22,042 nt of DNA from the IMG/VR virus record IMGVR_UViG_3300008450_000519, positions 1-22,042 of that record; one strand, 5' to 3'. The notes below the pieces were generated by a model. The model was not told where the DNA came from, did not search any database, and was given only the letters and a program-made list of their open reading frames with translations. The DNA is from a virus. Shown one piece after another: positions 739-22,042 of this stretch. A program made the position numbers and the translations under genes. The stretch's first letter is position 1; each line of letters starts with the position of its first letter.

Positions 739-972
739 TTATTCTTTTGTAAAAGTTATAGAATCAAGATTAAAAACTCTTATTACAGAATTATCGTCTT
801 TGATAATATCGCAATAATGTCTATCTCCATCACCTTGCGCTGCGTGATATTCTATTTTAACAACTCCATGTTGACCAACTTCGCAATAAGAGTAATCTTC
901 ACCAAAACCTTGATTAGGACTTCCTGTCCAAAAAAAATTGTGTGTTATTTTTTTTACTTTCATCTCTTTCAT
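739..972 (-). CDS. Hypothetical phage protein
   Basis: A 77-residue protein, or 74 if translation begins at the second ATG (963), which is preceded by AAAGAG. It is mostly beta-prone, with Tyr, Cys and His residues (EDYSYCEVGQHGVVKIEYH) and a segment GDGDRHYCDI. I do not recognise a family. It is the first gene downstream of the noncoding island at 980-1250, so that RNA could be its 5' leader. Confidence 0.6.
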   Translation of the reverse strand: MKEMKVKKITHNFFWTGSPNQGFGEDYSYCEVGQHGVVKIEYHAAQGDGDRHYCDIIKDDNSVIRVFNLDSITFTKE

Positions 973-979
973 AATTATT

Positions 980-1250
980 AAATTTGGCGCGAGGTTACAA
1001 ATTTAACTGCTATCAACCCAGATTTTCTTGAACCTAACCCGTAACTTTCTGAGTTGACCCCCGCCGATGAATTAATAAGTTTCGCTGCTGACCGAGAAAG
1101 CCCAGCCAGCAGCCCAGTCTTCACTGGTTCGCCTACACCCGCTACGCAGTTCTTGGCTGTACCGATTTAACCACAACCAACTACCCATTCTTTAACCAAT
1201 AAAATACATTTGCTATTTATTCAGCATAGCTGCTGGCTGGTTGTGGTATT
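980..1250 (-). ncRNA. Candidate structured RNA in a G+C-rich noncoding island
   Basis: The 973-1322 gap has no convincing reading frame and is clearly richer in G+C than the surroundings. It holds long complementary segments: 1102-1113 (CCAGCCAGCAGC) with 1229-1240, 12 of 12; 1170-1179 (ACCACAACCA) with 1238-1247, 10 of 10; 1084-1090 with 1107-1113, 7 of 7; 1114-1118 with 1123-1127; and 1013-1021 with 1049-1057. The last helix needs a G-U pair on the minus strand but has a C-A mismatch on the plus strand, favouring a leftward RNA. The first two helices are in pseudoknot order and share 3 bases. The 7-bp hairpin competes with the 12-bp helix. I match it to no known RNA class. It may be a free RNA or the leader of the next gene. 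Confidence 0.55.
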
Positions 1251-1322: not shown

Positions 1323-1850
1323 TTACTTTGAGGCAATATAATCTTTTCTATGTACAAAACACGCTTTTGACATTGCATAATTTGATGAAGGAAAAACTTG
1401 CTCACCAGTATTTTTACAAAGGTTCTTAACTCCTCTTTCTAAAAAAGCACACTCATTGCAATTAGCATCAATTTTCTGACATTCATAAGATTCTCTTTTA
1501 AATCCCTCTTCTTTACAATCTTTATGACTTAAATAAATTGCTTTTCCTGCTGTCCAATATCCATGAGTTATTACTGCTTGATCTCTTTCTACTTCATTTC
1601 TGCAATATCTGCATTTTGTAGTAAATAAATAATGATAACTATTCCACTCATATCCGCTTAGATTGTTTAATATTTGTTCTCCAGCCCTGTATCCTCTTAA
1701 TCTTAGATTTAATTTAAACCATCTCTTTTTAGCATATTGCTCGCTTTGCTGATAAAGTTTTTTTATAAATTTGCTTTCATAAGTTCTACCAAAACAAAAA
1801 TCAAAATAAACTTCTTTATCGAAGTTTTTTTTATCAATATATTTTTTCAT
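1323..1850 (-). CDS. Cys-rich phage protein, possible zinc binding
   Basis: A 175-residue protein. Residues 1-75 are basic and aromatic. The second half is rich in Cys and His: CRYC (about residue 80), HKDC (about 109), then C, C-x2-C and further Cys up to CFVH near the end. CxxC pairs of this kind usually bind zinc. I do not recognise the family. It follows RusA in the operon, separated by about 20 bases, which fits an accessory nucleic-acid role but does not prove it. Confidence 0.7.
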   Translation of the reverse strand: MKKYIDKKNFDKEVYFDFCFGRTYESKFIKKLYQQSEQYAKKRWFKLNLRLRGYRAGEQILNNLSGYEWNSYHYLFTTKCRYCRNEVERDQAVITHGYWTAGKAIYLSHKDCKEEGFKRESYECQKIDANCNECAFLERGVKNLCKNTGEQVFPSSNYAMSKACFVHRKDYIASK

Positions 1851-1872: not shown

Positions 1873-2205
1873 TTAAGCGGTGAAGGTTTCAATCTTTACC
1901 TTGATGTATTCCTCACCTTTTGCTACTAATATCTTTTTTACTCTTCCTTCTATAATATCCCTATCGTCAAAATCATACTTCTTACAAAGCACATCTTGAA
2001 GAACTTTAACACAATTATCATAATCTGCTAACTTACTACTCAAGCCAAATTCAAAATAAATTGAATAAGGTTTTGGAGGAAGTTCTTTTTTAGGAAGAGT
2101 TAAAAGTAACTTTTGCTCGTAAAATTTATACTTAGGAGTCTTAAATCTTTTTCCTTGCCAAGCTTCGTTTACTGACAATGGTTTTATTTTTTTAAAAATT
2201 TCCAT
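1873..2205 (-). CDS. rusA: RusA-like Holliday junction resolvase
   Basis: A 110-residue protein of the usual RusA length. The N-terminal segment SVNEAWQGKRFKTPKYK (residues 11-27) corresponds to the family's start, and the catalytic core shows DYDNCVKVLQDVL (61-73) followed by DFDDRDI (78-84). The Asp residues 61, 63 and 80-83 fit the metal-binding acidic residues of RusA. Members cleave four-way junctions as homodimers and act in phage recombination and packaging. The gene overlaps the preceding one by 14 bases and shares the operon with RecT, the exonuclease and SSB. Confidence 0.85.
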   Translation of the reverse strand: MEIFKKIKPLSVNEAWQGKRFKTPKYKFYEQKLLLTLPKKELPPKPYSIYFEFGLSSKLADYDNCVKVLQDVLCKKYDFDDRDIIEGRVKKILVAKGEEYIKVKIETFTA

Positions 2206-2551
2206 TATCTGGCATAAAAAATTGTTTTCCGTTTCTAAAGATAATATTTACAAAATCTTCTTTAATATATCCAGCTTGTGTTGACCATGTTTCTCCTGTA
2301 TAAAAGCAAAAATCACCCCTAAAAGTAATACCAAGATCATCAATTTGTGGCTCAAATAACTTGCTAAATTCAAGAGATATAAAAGGAAACCTCACTCCAC
2401 TACTATTATAAACATTCCTGATCTCGTCCTCATCACTATATCTCTCGTAAATTACATCAGACTTATCATTACAATAACTACAAAATTCCACTCCAAAATT
2501 CTTATTCATGTATAAAGCTTCTATAAGGCAGTTATAATAATATCTTTTCAT
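2192..2551 (-). CDS. Hypothetical phage protein
   Basis: A 119-residue protein, beginning MKRYYYNC. The ATG at 2551 is chosen because GAGGTG lies just upstream; an in-frame TTG at 2563 is less likely. The sequence has CSYC near residue 24 and is acidic and aromatic thereafter (FPFISLEFSKLFEPQIDDLG). No family is recognised. Its end overlaps the start of rusA by 14 bases, which suggests coupled translation. Confidence 0.65.
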   Translation of the reverse strand: MKRYYYNCLIEALYMNKNFGVEFCSYCNDKSDVIYERYSDEDEIRNVYNSSGVRFPFISLEFSKLFEPQIDDLGITFRGDFCFYTGETWSTQAGYIKEDFVNIIFRNGKQFFMPDNGNF

Positions 2552-2567
2552 TTTACACCTCAATCAT

Positions 2568-3002
2568 TTAAAAAGGGATATCATCATTTAAAACAAAATC
2601 TTCTTGAGGAGTTGATTGCGCAAAAGCTTCATCAACTTTTTGATATCCAGCATCTTCAGTTTTTTTAGAAAGAAGTTGCAAATCGCTTCCATACCCACTA
2701 AGGACAATCTTAGTTACATACTTTTCAATTCCGTTTTTATCGGTGTACTTTTCAGTCTTAAGCGAGCCTTCAACATAAAGCTTACTTCCCTTGTCAACAT
2801 AAGATTCAACAATTCCAGCAAGTCCGCCAAAAACAGATATATTATGCCATTCTGTTTTCTCCTTTTTCTCTCCCGAATTTTTATCTTTCCAACTATCAGA
2901 AGTTGCCAAAGAAAAGCTGGCAATCTTTTTGCCGTCTTGTGTTGTTCTGATTTCTGGTTTTTTTCCGACCATTCCTAATAAAATTACACGATTTACACTC
3001 AT
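2568..3002 (-). CDS. ssb: Single-stranded DNA-binding protein (SSB)
   Basis: A 144-residue SSB. The OB fold covers about residues 1-110, with family landmarks SVNRVILLGMVGKKPEIRTT, ASFSLATSDSWKD, KTEWHNISVFG and GSKLYVEGSLKT. A short variable linker leads to the acidic tail DDIPF at the extreme C-terminus, the standard docking peptide for partner proteins. It coats single-stranded DNA during replication and recombination, and fits the neighbouring RecT and exonuclease. GGAGTAAAATA precedes the ATG. The core most resembles alphaproteobacterial SSBs from memory, the best host hint in the window. Confidence 0.95.
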   Translation of the reverse strand: MSVNRVILLGMVGKKPEIRTTQDGKKIASFSLATSDSWKDKNSGEKKEKTEWHNISVFGGLAGIVESYVDKGSKLYVEGSLKTEKYTDKNGIEKYVTKIVLSGYGSDLQLLSKKTEDAGYQKVDEAFAQSTPQEDFVLNDDIPF

Positions 3003-3006
3003 TATT

Positions 3007-3396
3007 TTACTCCTTATTTTTAATTGAATTAGTTATAGCTTGATTTAAAATCTCTTCTTTTCTAGCAAGTGCCTCAAAGGCTTCAGCTATTCTTTTCTCT
3101 TCTTCTTTTACCTTTTTCTTTAAAGCTTCCTTTTCTTTTTCAAGTTTTTCAAGAGCATCTTTGGGAAAATTCTTTCTAATAGAGTCAATAATAAATTCAC
3201 ATTTATCTTTTGTGTCTACTCCTTTTATATGATAATACAAAGAAGAAAATTCTGGAGTATTTTTATTGTACAACTCTCCTTTGATGTCCAAAATCTCTTT
3301 AAGAATATTGTCTAAACCATTATTTAGTCGGATCGCTTCTCTAAATTTATCCTCTAATTCTTTTATTGTCGACTTCTCAAAATCTATTATTTGCAT
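3007..3396 (-). CDS. Coiled-coil protein in the recombination operon
   Basis: A 129-residue, highly charged protein. Residues about 78-125 (Lys/Glu-rich, EKLEKEKEALKKKVKEEEK) predict a long coiled coil. The N-terminal part is helical with no recognised motif. AAGGAGTAAA sits directly before the ATG, a strong ribosome site. It lies between ssb and the NinB-like gene. A role as an assembly partner in recombination is plausible from position only. Confidence 0.7.
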   Translation of the reverse strand: MQIIDFEKSTIKELEDKFREAIRLNNGLDNILKEILDIKGELYNKNTPEFSSLYYHIKGVDTKDKCEFIIDSIRKNFPKDALEKLEKEKEALKKKVKEEEKRIAEAFEALARKEEILNQAITNSIKNKE

Positions 3397-3397
3397 T

Positions 3398-3844
3398 TTA
3401 CTCCTTATAATAATTAATTAACTCCACCTTTTCCCTTTCTTCAAGGTAACAGTTATGAATCCCTTTTTCAATTGCATAATTTAGAATGGACTCAATAATA
3501 TTCTTCATCTCTTCCTTGGTTGTGTCTGATTTACCATTAATTGACCTAACAATTTTTATTCCTTCAATAACCTTTACATGACCCGCCTTCTCAAGCATTA
3601 AATCTTTTATTTCATCACTAAAGAAAAAATGACCTCTTTCTTCCAAAGTGTCTCTGATGCAATCAATTAAACGCCAAAATCCTCTTAGCTGCTTAGGACT
3701 TCTTTTTTCTTGAATATCTTGCACAACAACCTCAAAATCTTTTCCTGATTGGAATAATAACAAAGCTTTCTGCTTAGCATTATTTATCTTAAGGCTAAAC
3801 TCGTCTTGCTTCTCTCCTTTGTAGAAATAGAATTTATTTTGCAT
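3398..3844 (-). CDS. Possible NinB/Orf-like recombination protein
   Basis: A 148-residue protein. The stretch KRSPKQLRGFWRLID, then DEIKDLMLEKAG, then KSDTTKEEMKNIIESI and YAIEKGI follows the order of landmarks in lambda NinB (Orf), a protein that helps load recombinases on SSB-coated DNA: basic RSxxQ start, a middle region with an acidic-Lys segment, then Thr-Lys-Glu-Glu-Met and a terminal helix. The match is from memory and loose. The setting next to ssb, YqaJ and RecT supports it. Its start overlaps the preceding membrane protein gene by 11 bases. Confidence 0.45.
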   Translation of the reverse strand: MQNKFYFYKGEKQDEFSLKINNAKQKALLLFQSGKDFEVVVQDIQEKRSPKQLRGFWRLIDCIRDTLEERGHFFFSDEIKDLMLEKAGHVKVIEGIKIVRSINGKSDTTKEEMKNIIESILNYAIEKGIHNCYLEEREKVELINYYKE

Positions 3845-3998
3845 TTTCCAATATATCTAACACAATAAAAACACCAATAACTGAGACGCTTAACATAAAG
3901 AATGCAAACATATTCTTATAGATGTCACCGCTCGTTTTGAAGATTTCAGTAATCGAATAGATCATAAATACTAAATTAGCAACTAACAAAAAACCCAT
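3834..3998 (-). CDS. Small two-helix membrane protein
   Basis: A 54-residue frame with a very strong SD (GGAGGG, about 9 bases before ATG 3998). Two hydrophobic segments, about residues 2-18 (GFLLVANLVFMIYSI) and 32-48 (FAFFMLSVSVIGVFIVL), are joined by a short polar loop with Lys and Asp, so a membrane hairpin is predicted. Function is unknown. It sits within the recombination operon and overlaps the next gene by 11 bases. Confidence 0.7.
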   Translation of the reverse strand: MGFLLVANLVFMIYSITEIFKTSGDIYKNMFAFFMLSVSVIGVFIVLDILENAK

Positions 3999-4020
3999 AC
4001 TACTTACCCTCCTTTAGTTA

Positions 4021-4647
4021 TTAATTCAATTTTTTCAAAAACTCATTTCTAATCAAAACAGCCTTTAAAACTGCTTGTTCTAACTTTTTAATAAATTCCT
4101 CATCTCTAAAAACCCTTATTATAATTAATCTTTTACTCTCATCTTTGATTTGATTATTATAAGCCACAAAATCGCACCATTTTCTTTCGCTAATCCATAG
4201 TTGACCTTGAACTTGGCATTTATAATCAGCGGGCATTTCTGGCTTCTCTTGCATTAATAAGTTAGAATGCGCTTCTGCTTCTAAGCATTTAATCTCAATC
4301 AAACCATCATCTCCCACGAGACCGTCTGGTGAACAACCAAAATTCCCACAATCACTTTTTATAAAAGTTATCTGCTCGACCTCTTCCAATTTTTCTTCAC
4401 AATAAGCTTGTCTTGCTTCTGCTTCAAGCTCGTTTCCCAAAATCATTGCATCACTCTTAAATTCTTTTGCTGTTAAGGCTTTATAAGTTAATTCTAAGGC
4501 TAATTGTTTTGCGTATTTATCTAAAGAAGCTGATTCTTTTGCAGTTGCTGGAGTTAAAACTTTACTAAAGTTAGAAGCTGTTGCAACGCCTTTTCTTAAA
4601 TCTAACCACTCTTGCGTTCCTTGGTCTATTCCATTAATTATTTGCAT
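4021..4647 (-). CDS. YqaJ-like recombination exonuclease
   Basis: A 208-residue PD-(D/E)xK nuclease of the YqaJ/lambda-exonuclease type. Landmarks are GTQEWLDLRKGVATAS (residues 10-25), GNELEAEARQAY (71-82), SPDG with Asp108, EIK with Glu118 and Lys120, and QVQGQLW near 150. These are the expected active-site residues. Such enzymes resect double-stranded ends 5' to 3' and hand the strand to a RecT-type annealase, here encoded directly upstream with a 14-base overlap. ATG 4647 is preceded by GGAGGT and is preferred over an in-frame TTG one codon earlier. Confidence 0.9.
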   Translation of the reverse strand: MQIINGIDQGTQEWLDLRKGVATASNFSKVLTPATAKESASLDKYAKQLALELTYKALTAKEFKSDAMILGNELEAEARQAYCEEKLEEVEQITFIKSDCGNFGCSPDGLVGDDGLIEIKCLEAEAHSNLLMQEKPEMPADYKCQVQGQLWISERKWCDFVAYNNQIKDESKRLIIIRVFRDEEFIKKLEQAVLKAVLIRNEFLKKLN

Positions 4648-5566
4648 CAACCACCTCCACTTTTAAATCTGGTGATAAATTCAACTTGTTGATAATTATT
4701 TGAAATTTGTCTGAAGGTAAATCAATAATAGAATTTAATTTTAAGGCTGCACAAATTGTTTTAATGTCTTTACCTTTCTTTTTTGCAAGCTCTTGAATTT
4801 CAAGACCTTGTTCTTGAGTAATTTTCTCTTGCGCCTCTTGCTCTATAACAACATCGTTTTTGCTTAAATCATATTCTTGATTGTCAAATTCAGCAATATT
4901 GGCAATATCTTGAAGACCGCTAAAATGAACTTTACAAGCTCTTTTAATGATTGCCGCTTTGGCTTTTTCTTCAAACCAACTATCCCAAATTGTTTGAGTT
5001 TTAGCTTTTCCTTTTATTTTGTTAACTTCCAATAAAGAAACTGTTTCACAAAACGATACGAGGCGATTATTGATTGTGTAGGAAATATAACAGAATCCGC
5101 CGACAATATCAGTTTTATTGCCAAAAGGATTATTTCTAACCAAAGTATAACTCGTCAGATCTCCTTCTTTAATAACCTTAAACTCATCATCTTTATAAAC
5201 CATTTGCACATCAATATTAGCATCTTGGATAACTCGTTTGATTGAATAGATAAATCCACGATAACCAATCCATAAAGAAGCCTCACTAATCCAATTTGGC
5301 TCTTGGTCAGTTCCTATGTTTTTGCTGTGTTTAACTAGATGGCAATGCTGTCTCGAATCTATCTCTAAATTTAAATCACAAGCTGTTTTAACTGCTCTTA
5401 CAATGCTTTCTGGTGTGCAAGTTGTTAAATCTTTTGCCTTATCTCCTTGAGTCTTCTTGATCTCATTTAAAACGCTCAGAATGTACTTATCTTTTTTAGA
5501 ACCCAAACATTCTCTAAGTATCGGCGAATTTAACAAACTTTTTTCCAAAACTACTAGTCCACTCAT
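4634..5566 (-). CDS. recT: RecT-family single-strand annealing protein
   Basis: A 310-residue RecT homologue. The family core is visible: TPESIVRAVKTACDLNLEID (about residues 50-69), then the conserved WIGYRGFIYSIKR segment (about 97-109), the central beta region, and KIKGKAKTQTIWDSW followed by FEEKAKAAIIKRACK (about 205-220). The C-terminal 80 residues are Gln/Glu/Lys-rich with an extra helical region. It anneals complementary single strands and pairs with the exonuclease downstream. No clear SD is seen before ATG 5566. Confidence 0.92.
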   Translation of the reverse strand: MSGLVVLEKSLLNSPILRECLGSKKDKYILSVLNEIKKTQGDKAKDLTTCTPESIVRAVKTACDLNLEIDSRQHCHLVKHSKNIGTDQEPNWISEASLWIGYRGFIYSIKRVIQDANIDVQMVYKDDEFKVIKEGDLTSYTLVRNNPFGNKTDIVGGFCYISYTINNRLVSFCETVSLLEVNKIKGKAKTQTIWDSWFEEKAKAAIIKRACKVHFSGLQDIANIAEFDNQEYDLSKNDVVIEQEAQEKITQEQGLEIQELAKKKGKDIKTICAALKLNSIIDLPSDKFQIIINKLNLSPDLKVEVVDANN

Positions 5567-6276: not shown

Positions 6277-6304
6277 ATTTTATACATACAAAATGCATAG
6301 TCAA
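6277..6304 (-). promoter_or_regulatory. Leftward sigma-70-type promoter
   Basis: Read leftward: TTGACT (6304-6299), 16 bases, TAAAAT (6282-6277), about 45 bases before ATG 6232. It overlaps the 3' end of the upstream gene, so it would give the gene pair with the RHH regulator and the RecT operon an independent transcript. The 16-base spacing matches the other promoters in the window. Confidence 0.5.
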
Positions 6305-6573
6305 CGATTATCAAAAATACTTTTACAATTTATTTTTTTTGCCTTACTTTGAGACAAATCGCAATTGAGAAACAAGATGTTTCTAAACTCCCCGCCTTTT
6401 ATGACTGTGTTCTTTATCACAGACATTTTCCTTTTACCTTTAAATTTTCCTTCAACTATTTCTAATTTATTTCGCCAGTTTACTACTGCGTTTTCAATCT
6501 CAATTTCCCGCAAGAATGGAAAGCAGCCTTCTAAGTCTCTTTGGGTGATGTTTAAGTCGCTATTTATTTGCAT
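6301..6573 (-). CDS. Hypothetical protein
   Basis: A 90-residue basic protein. Residues 9-50 carry a helix-rich region (TQRDLEGCFPFLREIEIENA), and the C-terminal half is strand-like with NTVIKGGEFRNILFLNCDLS, faintly like pentapeptide repeats but not regular enough to call. No SD is seen before ATG 6573. No function is assigned. Confidence 0.6.
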   Translation of the reverse strand: MQINSDLNITQRDLEGCFPFLREIEIENAVVNWRNKLEIVEGKFKGKRKMSVIKNTVIKGGEFRNILFLNCDLSQSKAKKINCKSIFDNR

Positions 6574-12912: not shown

Positions 12913-13491
12913 ATGAAAATAAAACCAATAAAAACAATTACAGAGAATGAATATCAATTTTACGCAAAAACAATTGAACAACTTCTTAATATTAGACTCG
13001 CACTTTATTTGCATGAACCTTCAAGAATTGGCATAAACATCACTGACATTATAGCAAGTGTCAGCGTCCAGAATCGTGTTAATATTTCTGTTTCTGCAAG
13101 AGTAAATAATGAAAAATTTTATTTTAATCCAATACCAAACAAACAAGAGCATCTCATTAGTTATGAAATAGCGGAACTCAAGGATCAAAAAAGTATTGAT
13201 TTAATAATCTCTGATCTTTGTGAGAAAGTGCAAGATGGAGTCTATTTTATTCATAAAACTCAAGCTGATAGGAAGAAGAAAGAAGAGTCTGAAAATAAAG
13301 AAAAAGAAAGGGTGCATTCATTGTTGTTTAATGCAAAAAAAGCAAAAGTAGAAATGATTGTCGATTTATTAAGCGAATCTAGCTTTGAAGAATTGGACGC
13401 TGCTGAAGATTTACTAATTAAAATTAAAGAAAGCAAAATTCCAATAAGCAGCATTGAAGTATTATTAAAATTAATTAATAAATCAAAATAA
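12913..13491 (+). CDS. Hypothetical protein
   Basis: A 192-residue protein. ATG follows TTAAACTT without an SD. Residues 1-115 are strand-rich; from about 117 there is a charged Lys/Glu helix (RKKKEESENKEKERVHSLLF), then Leu-rich helices (EELDAAEDLLIKIKE). No family is recognised. Its stop overlaps the start of the tRNA synthetase gene by one base, so the two are probably translated together. Confidence 0.65.
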   Translation: MKIKPIKTITENEYQFYAKTIEQLLNIRLALYLHEPSRIGINITDIIASVSVQNRVNISVSARVNNEKFYFNPIPNKQEHLISYEIAELKDQKSIDLIISDLCEKVQDGVYFIHKTQADRKKKEESENKEKERVHSLLFNAKKAKVEMIVDLLSESSFEELDAAEDLLIKIKESKIPISSIEVLLKLINKSK

Positions 13492-14294
13492 TGAAAAAGA
13501 TAGTTGTTTCAGGAATTCAGCCAACAGGCAATTTGCACTTAGGAAGTTATCTTGGTGCAATTAAGCAATGGAAAGAATTGCAGGAAAATCCTGATTATGA
13601 ATGTAGATTTATGATTGCTGATTTACACGCAATGACAACTAAGTCAACCATTCCAAATGATAGCGAAATTAACATAGAAGCTTACAATACTTTTAGGCAA
13701 TTGGCTAACTTTGGGATAGATTATAAAAATCTATTTTACCAATCGCTAGATGTAAGTATTATAAGAATGTATTGGAAACTTGCCTGCAATTCTTCCGTTG
13801 GGCAGCTTAAGCGAATGACGCAATTTAAAGAAAAAGCTGACAAGAATAATCAAAACTTAGGTTTATTTTCTTATCCCGTTTTAATGGCTGCTGACATCTT
13901 AGCTTTAGAGGCTGACCTAGTACCAGTTGGTGAAGACCAAAAACAACATTTAGAACTTGCAAGAGACTTGGCAAAGAAACTTGGTTTAAAAGTGCCAGAG
14001 CCTCTTATTTCTAAAAACTGTGGAAGAATTATGTCTTTAACCGACCCAACCAAGAAAATGAGTAAATCTGATCCTAATGACAATTCCCGCATTAATTTAA
14101 ACGATGATGCAGAAACGATTAAAAAGAAGATTAAAAAGGCAGTGACAACGCCAGAAGGTAAATTAAATTTACAAATTATTTATAAAGGTTGTGGTGGTAA
14201 AGAAAACTTGCTAGAAATGCTTAATGAAAACGCTGCAACAGCTAAGCAAATTATTGCAAAGCAAATTATTAACGAATTAAATAAAGGAGAATAA
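13491..14294 (+). CDS. trpS: Tryptophanyl-tRNA synthetase, shortened C-terminal domain
   Basis: A 267-residue class I synthetase that attaches Trp to tRNA-Trp. Clear TrpRS landmarks are GIQPTGNLHLGSY (residues 8-20, with the HIGH-type HLGS), ADLHAMT (43-49), NSSVGQLKRMTQFKEK (100-115), GLFSYPVLMAADIL (124-137, with the Trp-binding Asp135), VPVGEDQKQHLEL (144-156) and KMSKS (189-193). The catalytic half is complete. Typical TrpRS is about 330 residues; here roughly 55-65 residues are missing from the helical anticodon-binding region, while the final helix (AAKQIIAKQIINEL-like) is kept. Seeing this gene in a phage is unusual. tRNA-Trp is not in the window. Confidence 0.93.
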   Translation: MKKIVVSGIQPTGNLHLGSYLGAIKQWKELQENPDYECRFMIADLHAMTTKSTIPNDSEINIEAYNTFRQLANFGIDYKNLFYQSLDVSIIRMYWKLACNSSVGQLKRMTQFKEKADKNNQNLGLFSYPVLMAADILALEADLVPVGEDQKQHLELARDLAKKLGLKVPEPLISKNCGRIMSLTDPTKKMSKSDPNDNSRINLNDDAETIKKKIKKAVTTPEGKLNLQIIYKGCGGKENLLEMLNENAATAKQIIAKQIINELNKGE

Positions 14295-14740: not shown

Positions 14741-15118
14741 ATGAGAACAATTAAATTTAGAGCTTGGATAAAACAAAGGAATGAAATGACCTATGATTCT
14801 ACTGATGACCAAGATTCAATTCTAGTTGATTCACTTAATGCTATAAATGGGTCGTTAGAATCAGACAGGTATGATTTTATGCAATTTACAGGGTTGCTCG
14901 ACAAGAATGGAAAAGAGATATACGAAGGTGATATTGTTAAGTATTTTGATTATAAATATGATGTTAAATTTCACGCTGGAATGTTTGGAATTATCTTTAA
15001 GGATGATTTTGATCCTATCTCCCATTTTTATTTAGATTCTAATTTAGTAAAATTAAATCTCGAAGTAATTGGCAACATTTACGAAAATAAAAACTTACTT
15101 GAACGAGAAGATGGCTGA
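14741..15118 (+). CDS. YopX-like phage protein
   Basis: A 125-residue protein with the YopX pattern: IKFRAWIKQRNEM at the N-terminus (residues 4-16), QFTGLLDKNGKEIYEGDIVKY (about 47-67) and LEVIGNIYEN at the end (about 106-115). AAGGAGGAATAA precedes ATG 14741. YopX proteins are frequent in phages of many hosts; function is not established. The last 14 bases lie inside the following tRNA gene. Confidence 0.88.
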   Translation: MRTIKFRAWIKQRNEMTYDSTDDQDSILVDSLNAINGSLESDRYDFMQFTGLLDKNGKEIYEGDIVKYFDYKYDVKFHAGMFGIIFKDDFDPISHFYLDSNLVKLNLEVIGNIYENKNLLEREDG

Positions 15119-15190
15119 GTGGTCAAAAGCGACAGACTGTAAATCTGTTACCGAAAGGTTACGCAGGTTCGAATCCTGCTCTTCTCACCA
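15105..15190 (+). tRNA. tRNA-Tyr (GTA anticodon)
   Basis: An 86-base class II tRNA. Acceptor stem GAGAAGA (15105-15111) pairs with TCTTCTC (15180-15186), then A and the encoded CCA. The D arm is GCT...AGC. The anticodon stem is ACAGA/TCTGT with loop CTGTAAA and anticodon GTA at 15139-15141. A long variable arm follows (UACC-GAAA-GGUUA). The T arm is GCAGG-TTCGAAT-CCTGC. All arms are intact, so it should be functional. It overlaps the end of the YopX-like gene by 14 bases. Confidence 0.95.
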
Positions 15191-15923: not shown

Positions 15924-15933
15924 ATTAACTGAT

Positions 15934-15988
15934 TTTTCTTTACATATATTCATCAACATGTAAAGAAAAAGCCATTTTCTTTACATGT
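15934..15988. other. Long palindrome plus third copy of the same motif
   Basis: ACATGTAAAGAAAA (15956-15969) and TTTTCTTTACATGT (15975-15988) form a perfect 14-bp inverted repeat around AGCCA. A third copy of the core, TTTTCTTTACAT, lies at 15934-15945. There is no T-run after the stem, so a terminator is not favoured; a repressor operator or a leader hairpin suits better. The following structured element starts 28 bases downstream. Confidence 0.8.
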
Positions 15989-16015
15989 ATCTGGGAATTG
16001 ATTTATAATAATTAC

Positions 16016-16069
16016 GCCGCAGGAATCCTTCGGGAGTTTACCATCTCTTCAATGAGAGCTGCGGCACCA
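16016..16069 (+). ncRNA. tRNA-like three-way-junction element in a leader
   Basis: A 54-base element. GCCGCAG (16016-16022) pairs perfectly with CTGCGGC (16059-16065), followed by A and CCA, as in a tRNA 3' end. Inside are a C-UUCG-G tetraloop hairpin (16026-16035) and a small hairpin CTCT-TCAATG-AGAG (16045-16058) directly next to the 3' strand, in the place of a T arm. There is no anticodon arm. It ends 19 bases before ATG 16089 and may be a degenerate tRNA, a tRNA mimic or an mRNA leader structure. I cannot match it to a known class. Confidence 0.5.
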
Positions 16070-16088
16070 ACAACTAAACAAAAAACTT

Positions 16089-16349
16089 ATGAAAAAAGAC
16101 GAAAAAATAATGCTACAGCACGCAATAAGTGGAAAATTTGGATTTGGAAATGGTATTGATATTTCTGAGGGTTTAACAAAGCCTCAAGAAATGATTATTA
16201 ATCATGATAAAAAAGAGATTATTATTAAATCTTATGATGGGGCTTTTGATTTAAAAGGTTTGGAAAAATATAAAGATTATCTACTACTATTTGTTTTAGA
16301 TGATGTTGCTATTTTGAATTGCAAAGTTGAGGAGGTTTTTAATGATTAA
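16089..16349 (+). CDS. Hypothetical protein
   Basis: An 86-residue protein starting in the context AAAACTT-ATG without an SD, just after the structured leader. It has FGFGNGIDISEGL, a strand EIIIKSYDGAFD and an end in LLLFVLDDVAILNCKVEEVF. No family is recognised. Its end overlaps the start of the putative glycosyltransferase gene by 8 bases and includes that gene's SD (GAGGAGG). Confidence 0.6.
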   Translation: MKKDEKIMLQHAISGKFGFGNGIDISEGLTKPQEMIINHDKKEIIIKSYDGAFDLKGLEKYKDYLLLFVLDDVAILNCKVEEVFND

Positions 16350-19848: not shown

Positions 19849-22042
19849 ATGGAACTAAATCAAGAACAAAAAGACAAAGCAAAACGGCTTCTCACAGACT
19901 TACCTTTCTTTGCTAAAAACTGTCTGAAAATCAGAACAAAAGACGCAGGCATTCAAAACTTCGCAATCAACAAAGCTCAAATATATATACACGAGCAGCT
20001 TGAAAAGCAAAAGCGAGAGACTGGCAGGGTTCGTGCAGTAATCGTAAAAGGCAGACAACAGGGATGCTGTTATTCACCTACCATGAGAGTGCTTACCGCT
20101 AATTATCAATGGAAAAAACTAAAAGCTATTGAGGTTGGAACTAGATTAATAGCAACAGATGAGAATGTGGGCAATACTAATAAGGCTGGCAGAAGGACAG
20201 AAAGAAGATTAAGAACTGCGACAGTTGAAGCAATAGCTTATTTAGAGAAGGAAGTCTTTGAGGTGAAGATGGATAATGGAGTTGTTCTCGAAGTTACTGG
20301 AGAGCATCGTCATTTATGCAGACAAAGGGGAGGAGATGAAGCTAGATGGCGAGAAGTTAAAGATATGAAGATTGGTGATTACATTAGAGCAGTTACTCAA
20401 CCACCAGTTGAAAGAGAGCAAGATTTTGAAGATGGATGGTTTGCTGGTTTGTTGGATGGAGAGGGAACATTCGCAGCTAGTCCACAGGTAAGAATAGGAT
20501 TAAGTCAAGTTGAGGGCGATGTTTTAAAAAGGGCAAGACGATATTTACAGGATAATGATATTCATTATTATGAATTAACAGATAAAAGAAAGTCTGGGTC
20601 ATCAAAATTAGGTAATAAGGAAGTTCATTGCCTGCGTGTAGATAGATTGACAGATGTGATGAAGTTAATGACTTTAACTCGACCATCAAGATTTATTAAG
20701 CGTGAGATATTTAATGGTAAGAAAATGCCAAAATCTTGTGAAGGATTTAATGCTTGGTCAAAAGTCATTTCTATTAAATCATTAGGAATCCAAGAGGTTA
20801 TTGATTTACAAACCAGTGAGAAAACTTTTATATGTGAAGGCTTAGTATCTCATAACTCAACATACATTGCCGCACGCTTCTATCATCAAGTAATCACTCG
20901 CAAAGGTTGTAAAGCTTTCATTCTTGGTCATCGCGAAGACGCAACAAACAACTTATATCAATTAGTTCTGCGTTATCAAGAGATGATGCCAGACTTTCTT
21001 AAGCCCAAAACTACAGTATCAAATGCTAAATCGCTTGCGTTTGGTGAGTTGCAATCAGGTTATAGTTTGGGGACGAGTGGAGGTGGAACAGTTGGAAGAT
21101 CGGACACAATCCAATTGCTTCACATGTCAGAAGCGGCTTATTACGAGAATACGGAAGAGTTAAGCTCTGGCGTGATGCAAACAGTATTGGACGGAGACAA
21201 CACAGAAATTATTTTGGAATCAACAGCAAATGGAATGGGTAATTTCTTCCACAAAATGGCAATGGGAGCTATTGCGGGAAAGAATGGCTATGAATTGATA
21301 TTTGTGCCGTGGTTCTGGCAATCGGAATATGTGGGAAAAGGTCAATTAGATTTGAGCGAAGATGACGAAGTTTATCAGCAATTGCACAATCTAACAGATG
21401 CGCAGATGATTTGGAGACAACAAAAGATTGGCTCAATGGACGGAGGAGTTGGACAATTCAAACGAGAATATCCTGCAACTATTCAAGAAGCGTTTGAGAA
21501 TTCTGGTGAAGATAAACTAATCCCAACGAGTGCCGTAATGAACGCAAGACTCGCCAAACTTGAAATAGATTATCACGCGCCTTTATTAATTGGCGTTGAT
21601 CCTGCGCACGAGGGAAAAGATAGAACGGTTATAATGTATCGCAGAGGTAGAACCCAATTTAAGTCTGAAGTTTATTCGAAATGGAATACTGGACAGATTG
21701 TCGGTCGAATTGTTCAGATCATTAAAGCAGAAAGACCCGCGAAAGTATTTATTGATAAAGGTTATAATCCCGGTATTTATGACAGATTAGTTGAGTTGGG
21801 CTTTAGTGAGGTGATAATGGGCATTCACTTTGGACAAACGGCAGACAATCCGAACAAGTACTACAATAAAAGAGCTGAGATGTGGGATAGAGTTAAGCAA
21901 TGGTTAATTGATGCGCCTGTCTCAATTGAGAACATAGACGATCTACAAGCCGAACTTTGCGCAGTTGGAAGGAAACCGCCAGATTCTAAGGGGCGTTTAT
22001 TACAAGAAAAGAAAGAGGATATTAAGAAGTTAATTGGAGTGT
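19849..22042 (+). CDS. terL: Terminase large subunit with intein, 3' end off window
   Basis: The DNA-packaging ATPase and nuclease. ATG 19849; 731 codons are visible and the frame is still open at the right edge. Landmarks are the P-loop start KGRQQGC (67-73), interrupted by an intein, then STYIAARFYHQ; LLHMSEAAYY, the Walker B region with Glu428; ESTANGMGN (segment after the ATPase core); the RNase-H-like nuclease with GVDPAHEGKDR (Asp584) and FIDKGYNPG (Asp636). Spliced P-loop would be KGRQQGCSTYIAARF, a form I know from related terminases. The visible spliced protein is about 468 residues, so little is missing at the C-terminus. Confidence 0.95.
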   Translation, partial: MELNQEQKDKAKRLLTDLPFFAKNCLKIRTKDAGIQNFAINKAQIYIHEQLEKQKRETGRVRAVIVKGRQQGCCYSPTMRVLTANYQWKKLKAIEVGTRLIATDENVGNTNKAGRRTERRLRTATVEAIAYLEKEVFEVKMDNGVVLEVTGEHRHLCRQRGGDEARWREVKDMKIGDYIRAVTQPPVEREQDFEDGWFAGLLDGEGTFAASPQVRIGLSQVEGDVLKRARRYLQDNDIHYYELTDKRKSGSSKLGNKEVHCLRVDRLTDVMKLMTLTRPSRFIKREIFNGKKMPKSCEGFNAWSKVISIKSLGIQEVIDLQTSEKTFICEGLVSHNSTYIAARFYHQVITRKGCKAFILGHREDATNNLYQLVLRYQEMMPDFLKPKTTVSNAKSLAFGELQSGYSLGTSGGGTVGRSDTIQLLHMSEAAYYENTEELSSGVMQTVLDGDNTEIILESTANGMGNFFHKMAMGAIAGKNGYELIFVPWFWQSEYVGKGQLDLSEDDEVYQQLHNLTDAQMIWRQQKIGSMDGGVGQFKREYPATIQEAFENSGEDKLIPTSAVMNARLAKLEIDYHAPLLIGVDPAHEGKDRTVIMYRRGRTQFKSEVYSKWNTGQIVGRIVQIIKAERPAKVFIDKGYNPGIYDRLVELGFSEVIMGIHFGQTADNPNKYYNKRAEMWDRVKQWLIDAPVSIENIDDLQAELCAVGRKPPDSKGRLLQEKKEDIKKLIGV
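20068..20856 (+). other. LAGLIDADG intein in TerL
   Basis: Codons 74-336 of the terL frame, 263 residues. The N-terminal splice block is CYSPTMRVLTANYQW (Cys1). Block B holds TGEHRH (Thr150, His153). A LAGLIDADG motif is FAGLLDGEGTF (198-208), visible only once. The C-terminal blocks are VISIKSLGIQEVIDLQ and LVSHN (His335, Asn336), followed by Ser as +1 residue. All catalytic splicing residues are present, so splicing should be efficient. The insertion splits the ATPase P-loop exactly between Cys73 and Ser337, so the terminase is inactive until splicing. Confidence 0.93.

Follow-up and report, generated by a model that had tools for sequence, protein, structure and literature searches.

What is a G+C-rich, gene-free island doing inside the leftward operon of an A+T-rich phage, and does it act as RNA or merely as DNA? 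The locus lies in a virus record of IMG/VR, 22,042 bases long with 32% G+C and analyzed over its whole length (hereafter the window). Genes run leftward to the left of ~12.1 kb and rightward to the right of it, and the leftward part encodes a DnaB-like helicase, a replication-initiator-like protein, RecT, an exonuclease, a NinB-like protein, SSB and a RusA-like protein. The island lies in the 350-nt gap between two leftward genes, g175 upstream and g77 downstream, with the recombination genes further upstream in the same array (Table 1).

The phage and the genes around the island

The two flanking genes give little indication of a role. No PHROG or Pfam match was obtained for g175, which carries CxxC-type cysteine pairs and whose C-terminal part has distant homologues (34-37% identity) in L002 and L003, two IMG/VR phages that are otherwise different. 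The same searches returned no match for g77, which has no recognisable function, and its AlphaFold model (single sequence, pLDDT 63) gave no useful structural match. The start codon of g77 follows the last structured base of the island by ~12 nt.

The host of the phage is uncertain. Cellular relatives of the RusA-like protein are mostly found in Bacteroidota, those of the terminase mostly in phages of gamma-proteobacteria and in environmental records, and a purine-rich ribosome-site word precedes only 14 of the 38 genes.

Several features of the rightward part deserve mention in their own right. A tryptophanyl-tRNA synthetase-like gene (13491-14294, plus strand; Pfam tRNA-synt_1b, 4e-65), whose best matches in phage collections are annotated as tryptophan--tRNA ligase, lies ~0.8 kb from a tRNA-Tyr (15105-15190), the only tRNA in the window. 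A second strongly folded intergenic region (15924-16088, plus strand, z -4.67) contains repeated operator-like arms (TTTCTTTACAT/ATGTAAAGAAA), a near-consensus promoter (TTTACA-18-TATAAT, 11/12, at 15980-16009) and, immediately ahead of the gene at 16089, a compact, G+C-rich RNA (~16015-16066) that resembles a three-way junction and includes a UUCG hairpin; this region has sub-threshold Rfam matches only, none at gathering score. The rightward part ends with the terminase large subunit gene (19849-22041, plus strand), which is interrupted by an intein with a weak LAGLIDADG-like domain.

Table 1. Positions of the island, its helices and the neighboring genes. Paired arms are written 5' to 3' on the minus strand; duplex energies as calculated.
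Feature	Positions	Strand	Basis or remarks
Recombination block, same gene array upstream of the island	1873-5566	-	PHROGs matches
RecT-like	4634-5566	-	PHROGs match
Exonuclease	4021-4650	-	PHROGs match
NinB-like	3398-3844	-	PHROGs match
SSB	2568-3002	-	PHROGs match
RusA-like	1873-2205	-	PHROGs match
g175, upstream gene, 175 aa, cysteine-rich	1323-1850	-	
Whole candidate structured RNA, ~263 nt (5' end near 1247, 3' end near 985)	985-1247	-	MFE, shuffles, window scan
5' domain, three-way junction closed by H1 (12 bp, 1247-1236/1181-1170)	1170-1247	-	H1 pair probabilities 0.86-1.0
First junction hairpin	1235-1231/1226-1222	-	Pair probabilities 0.89-0.96
Second junction hairpin	1221-1216/1203-1198	-	In the 5' domain
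Small 5-bp hairpin after a linker, CCAGU-GAAG-ACUGG, GAAG loop	1114-1127	-	Pair probabilities 0.98-1.0
H2, 13-bp hairpin 1113-1101/1096-1084, CUUU loop	1084-1113	-	Pair probabilities 0.93-1.0
3' domain	985-1064	-	H4, outer stem, alternative H5
H4, 11 bp, inside the outer stem	1058-1048/1022-1012	-	Pair probability 0.61-0.99; duplex energy -14.1
Outer stem	1064-1059/994-989	-	Duplex energy -8.6
H3, alternative, 1240-1228/1114-1102, 12 Watson-Crick pairs and one G-U	1102-1240	-	Pseudoknot order with H1, excludes H2
H5, alternative, 10 bp with 3 G-U	1045-1036/1003-994	-	Pseudoknot order with H4; duplex energy -6.7
g77, downstream gene, 77 aa, predicted all-beta at low confidence	739-972	-	

An apparently non-coding island whose predicted fold belongs to the minus strand

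The initial annotation had singled out the island as G+C-rich and gene-free, and the G+C profile, the gap length and the codon usage bear this out. G+C rises to 46% at 985-1247 and 57% at 1083-1180, the 100-nt windows of the island have the highest G+C anywhere in the window, and the gap is the longest intergenic gap there. Codon-usage scores are negative in all minus frames (-0.25 to -0.35, compared with 0.10 to 0.36 for the phage genes), and the single minus frame that stays open, for 62 codons (score -0.28), has no match in Pfam or in phages. A coding or decayed gene was rejected on both counts, and the island does not look coding. In A+T-rich genomes, G+C-rich gaps are well known to yield structured RNAs, and gap length and G+C, in both of which the island ranks first here, are the two properties by which such RNAs are picked (PMC6429828).

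The folding statistics, the strand asymmetry and the non-coding composition support the annotation of a structured RNA. From 1260 to 980 the minus strand reaches a minimum free energy (MFE) of -92.0 kcal/mol (z -3.94) and the plus strand -63.6 kcal/mol (z -1.86), so that one strand surpasses composition-matched shuffles in stability, as is generally expected of structured noncoding RNAs. The region was picked by eye before testing and the small shuffle fractions therefore overstate its rarity: none of 200 shuffles folds as low on the minus strand, 0.3% hold as many as its seven helices of at least 10 pairs, 0.5% have a hairpin as long as its 13-bp hairpin, 0.3% of 2000 dinucleotide shuffles of the 281-nt region contain a Watson-Crick helix of at least 12 pairs, none of these 2000 combines helices of 12 and 10, and the count of pairs in pseudoknot order, reached in 4.7%, is only mildly unusual. 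A scan of the whole window (438 windows of 200 nt, both strands) is a fairer comparison than island-only shuffles. Here, the lowest z (-4.8) belongs to 1101-1300 on the minus strand, and the lowest energies to 1001-1200 and 1101-1300, both minus. Several helices need G-U pairs that are present on the minus strand only, which is the strand of the operon. The strand of the RNA is settled as minus, in the same direction as the surrounding operon.

All four pairings described in the initial annotation exist, with each arm where it had been placed. Positions 1102-1113 (CCAGCCAGCAGC) and 1229-1240 (GCTGCTGGCTGG) form a perfect inverted repeat of 12 bases, and 1170-1179 (ACCACAACCA) and 1238-1247 (TGGTTGTGGT) one of 10; these are the only Watson-Crick helices of at least 8 pairs in the 281 nt. 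The helix between 1013-1021 (TCAACCCAG) and 1049-1057 (CTGAGTTGA), counted as 9 bp, indeed pairs fully on the minus strand only, where it extends to the 11 bp of H4. Although this helix had been given to the minus strand, the strands were otherwise mixed: the local hairpin reported to compete with the 12-bp helix does compete with it, but its 7 bp are a plus-strand remnant of the 13-bp hairpin H2, three G-U pairs of which become C-A on the plus strand. By computation, the lowest-energy fold of the minus strand consists of a 5' domain built as a three-way junction, a small hairpin, H2 and a 3' domain with H4.

Alternative pairings and the order of folding

The arm 1113-1102 can pair either backward, in H3, or forward, in H2. 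As an isolated duplex H3 is the stronger of the two (-26.9 vs. -22.2), but its formation breaks into H1 and the first hairpin, and full-length folds that contain it stop at -83.5, 8.5 kcal/mol worse than the optimum of -92.0. The 12-bp helix has a pair probability of 0 in nested-fold calculations, since 1113-1101 sits in H2 and 1240-1229 in H1 and a 5-bp hairpin. Pairs in the H-type order (i<k<j<l) of the pseudoknot proposed earlier exist, but the nested-fold calculations do not support it as the resting fold. The 12- and 10-bp helices, and with them H1 and H3, share three nucleotides (1238-1240) and therefore cannot both be complete. The pseudoknot is weakly supported, the two helices being an alternative or transient pairing, and by nested-fold energies it would be at most transient.

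When growing 5' fragments are folded, H1 gives way to H3 with the transcript end at 1102-1095, the only interval in which H3 is the MFE helix, and H1 together with H2 appears once 1084 is out. The earlier suggestion of a switch between folds is compatible with such sequential folding, but unproven. A second pair in pseudoknot order exists in the 3' domain, between H4 and H5, but H5 is weak; H5 and the outer stem, which are alternatives, meet at base 994.

Comparison with known RNA classes

The annotation had matched the island to no known class, and the covariance models lead to the same result. None of 4227 Rfam 15 families (ROOL, GOLLD, c4, riboswitches, ribozymes, group I introns, tmRNA, 6S and others) reaches its gathering score, and at E up to 10 only two eukaryotic models appear, both implausible and both matched on the plus strand, one for a miRNA precursor (16.8 bits, threshold 200) and one for an exon of a human lncRNA (11.6 bits, threshold 75). 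The c4 antisense RNA (RF01695) and the other phage RNAs of Rfam resemble the island in being noncoding phage RNAs, but do not match it. A certain likeness to tRNA and tmRNA is found in the 3' domain, where the final ...CCUCGC-GCCA faces GCGGGG; tmRNA, moreover, contains several pseudoknots. Both were rejected: ARAGORN detects neither RNA, whether with default settings or with introns allowed, no T-arm is seen and Rfam gives no match; with permissive cut-offs ARAGORN yields unconvincing hits only, with the tag not recognised.

Sites of the put type are much shorter and sit close to where early transcripts begin, whereas the island element comes >10 kb after the beginning of the leftward array. 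The comparison with the HK022 put RNA, which provides RNA-only antitermination in early operons, is limited to the way of working, that of a structured element on a nascent phage early-operon transcript (PMC9378689). Ornate RNAs are also known from phages, ROOL and GOLLD among them (PMC12286853). Like these, the candidate is noncoding, elaborate and phage-encoded, has pairings in pseudoknot order and is without an established function. Unlike these, which measure several hundred nucleotides, it spans ~263 nt, well under half their length, and it is far from tRNA genes (the only one is ~14 kb away), unlike many ROOL and GOLLD loci.

Search for homologues

Relatives of the island were sought with g175, g77 and the RusA and RecT neighbors as baits, followed by RusA and terminase alignments, and the loci and whole records retrieved were searched by blastn and two single-sequence covariance models. 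The genome samples comprised 11 host genomes, 395 Bacteroidota, 296 Bacteroidota for the model search (overlapping the 395) and 385 Alphaproteobacteria. No homologue was obtained by any route, whether from phages, plasmids, the several hundred sampled genomes or ~200 related loci, an absence that is weak evidence of rarity because the baits reached distant relatives only (at most 68% for RusA and 53% for terminase), a few hundred species were sampled and single-sequence models detect close structural copies only.

In particular, blastn of the island gave no match against phages or plasmids, and an exact-pattern search of genome contigs returned no homologue; in viral contigs it returned one match, rejected as lying in an unrelated 465-kb contig, and a second pattern search there gave none. 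Nothing convincing emerged from the sampled Bacteroidota and Alphaproteobacteria. Weak matches in the latter fall inside long genes, read from their translations as isocitrate lyase, fabD and sugar-nucleotide dehydratase (L208, L209 and L211), or span 34 bases (L210), and in the covariance-model matches L205-L207 (20-23 bits) helices are disrupted or long segments are deleted. A relative in RusA and SSB, L016, has a G+C-rich stretch at a similar place, but this is a different, tRNA-Leu-like sequence without a blastn match to the island. In that stretch (~6280-6510, ~1 kb downstream of RusA) a tRNA-Leu-like 5' half (TGGCGGAATAGGTAGACGC) is parted by a long insert from a T-arm-like sequence (GGCTAGTTCGATTCTAGC); neither ARAGORN with default settings nor Rfam calls it.

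Discussion

In this study, we propose, tentatively, that the island is a structured RNA element of the phage, read from the minus strand within the leftward recombination/replication operon and probably acting on its own transcript. Transcription presumably crosses the island leftward. Action in cis is the most likely mode since the gene array is co-directional, no promoter or terminator of its own stands out and the structure ends ~12 nt before the next start codon. H1 would form as RNA polymerase passes, H3 might form briefly after H1 and would then be replaced by H2, and the finished fold could bear on mRNA elongation, processing or stability where the recombination genes meet the downstream small-gene cassette. 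What we say here of function, beyond the fold, we infer. The bolder version, a new phage RNA class of ~260 nt in which H2 and H3, by sharing one arm, make up a timed strand-exchange switch on the nascent recombination-operon transcript, strikes us as rather doubtful.

Nearly as likely as the cis element, though itself on the unlikely side, is a discrete noncoding RNA of ~260 nt that starts on its own near 1247 or is cut from the operon transcript and works in trans, as free RNA or as an RNA-protein particle. The compact multi-domain fold, with limits close to the ends of the G+C-rich stretch, would suit such a molecule, a promoter could be accommodated in the 75 nt of A+T-rich sequence that separate the g175 stop from 1247, and ROOL and GOLLD provide precedents among phages (PMC12286853). 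The initial annotation had indeed placed a promoter-like pair at the first paired base. That pair is not supported, because a scan that covered promoters of the sigma-70 type finds neither promoter nor terminator at the island (shuffles of the 800-nt region average 2.7 sigma-70-like sites); the distance to the tRNA at 15105-15190 also speaks against an RNA of this kind. A stretch of DNA without RNA function, recently acquired or decaying, with repeats that are incidental or act as DNA, is unlikely. In its favor, the base composition is atypical of the phage, a minus frame stays open over 62 codons and no relative shows the structure to be kept, but the codon score of this frame is far from that of the genes, neither Pfam, phages nor plasmids give a match and the sampled Bacteroidota and Alphaproteobacteria no convincing one, notable flanking repeats are lacking, and a DNA palindrome would favor neither strand, whereas several helices need the G-U pairs of the minus strand.

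Control of g77 has little to commend it. A riboswitch-like or translational leader, in which the 3' domain would toggle between the outer stem and H5 to open or close the g77 start, is suggested by the last helix stopping close before the start codon and by the two alternatives meeting at base 994. Nested-fold control of g77 translation is not supported, however, because the start region is computed to be almost equally open whether the upstream domain is present or absent (0.47 vs. 0.49; 0.56 vs. 0.63), and with g77 of no recognisable function and no Rfam riboswitch match we regard this explanation as very improbable. Least probable is an RNA-primed replication origin. RNA-based phage origins exist, as reported for some extrachromosomal mycobacterial prophages (PMC7157519), and a long structured RNA within a replication and recombination gene array would fit one, but this phage encodes a DnaB-like helicase and a replication-initiator-like protein of its own.

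In summary, the island is best described as an orphan structured RNA, and one sequence makes it a strong candidate rather than a class. Should the RNA be real and conserved in relatives, it would represent an unassigned class of phage RNA within a recombination-protein operon, with shared-arm helices open to direct testing by probing.
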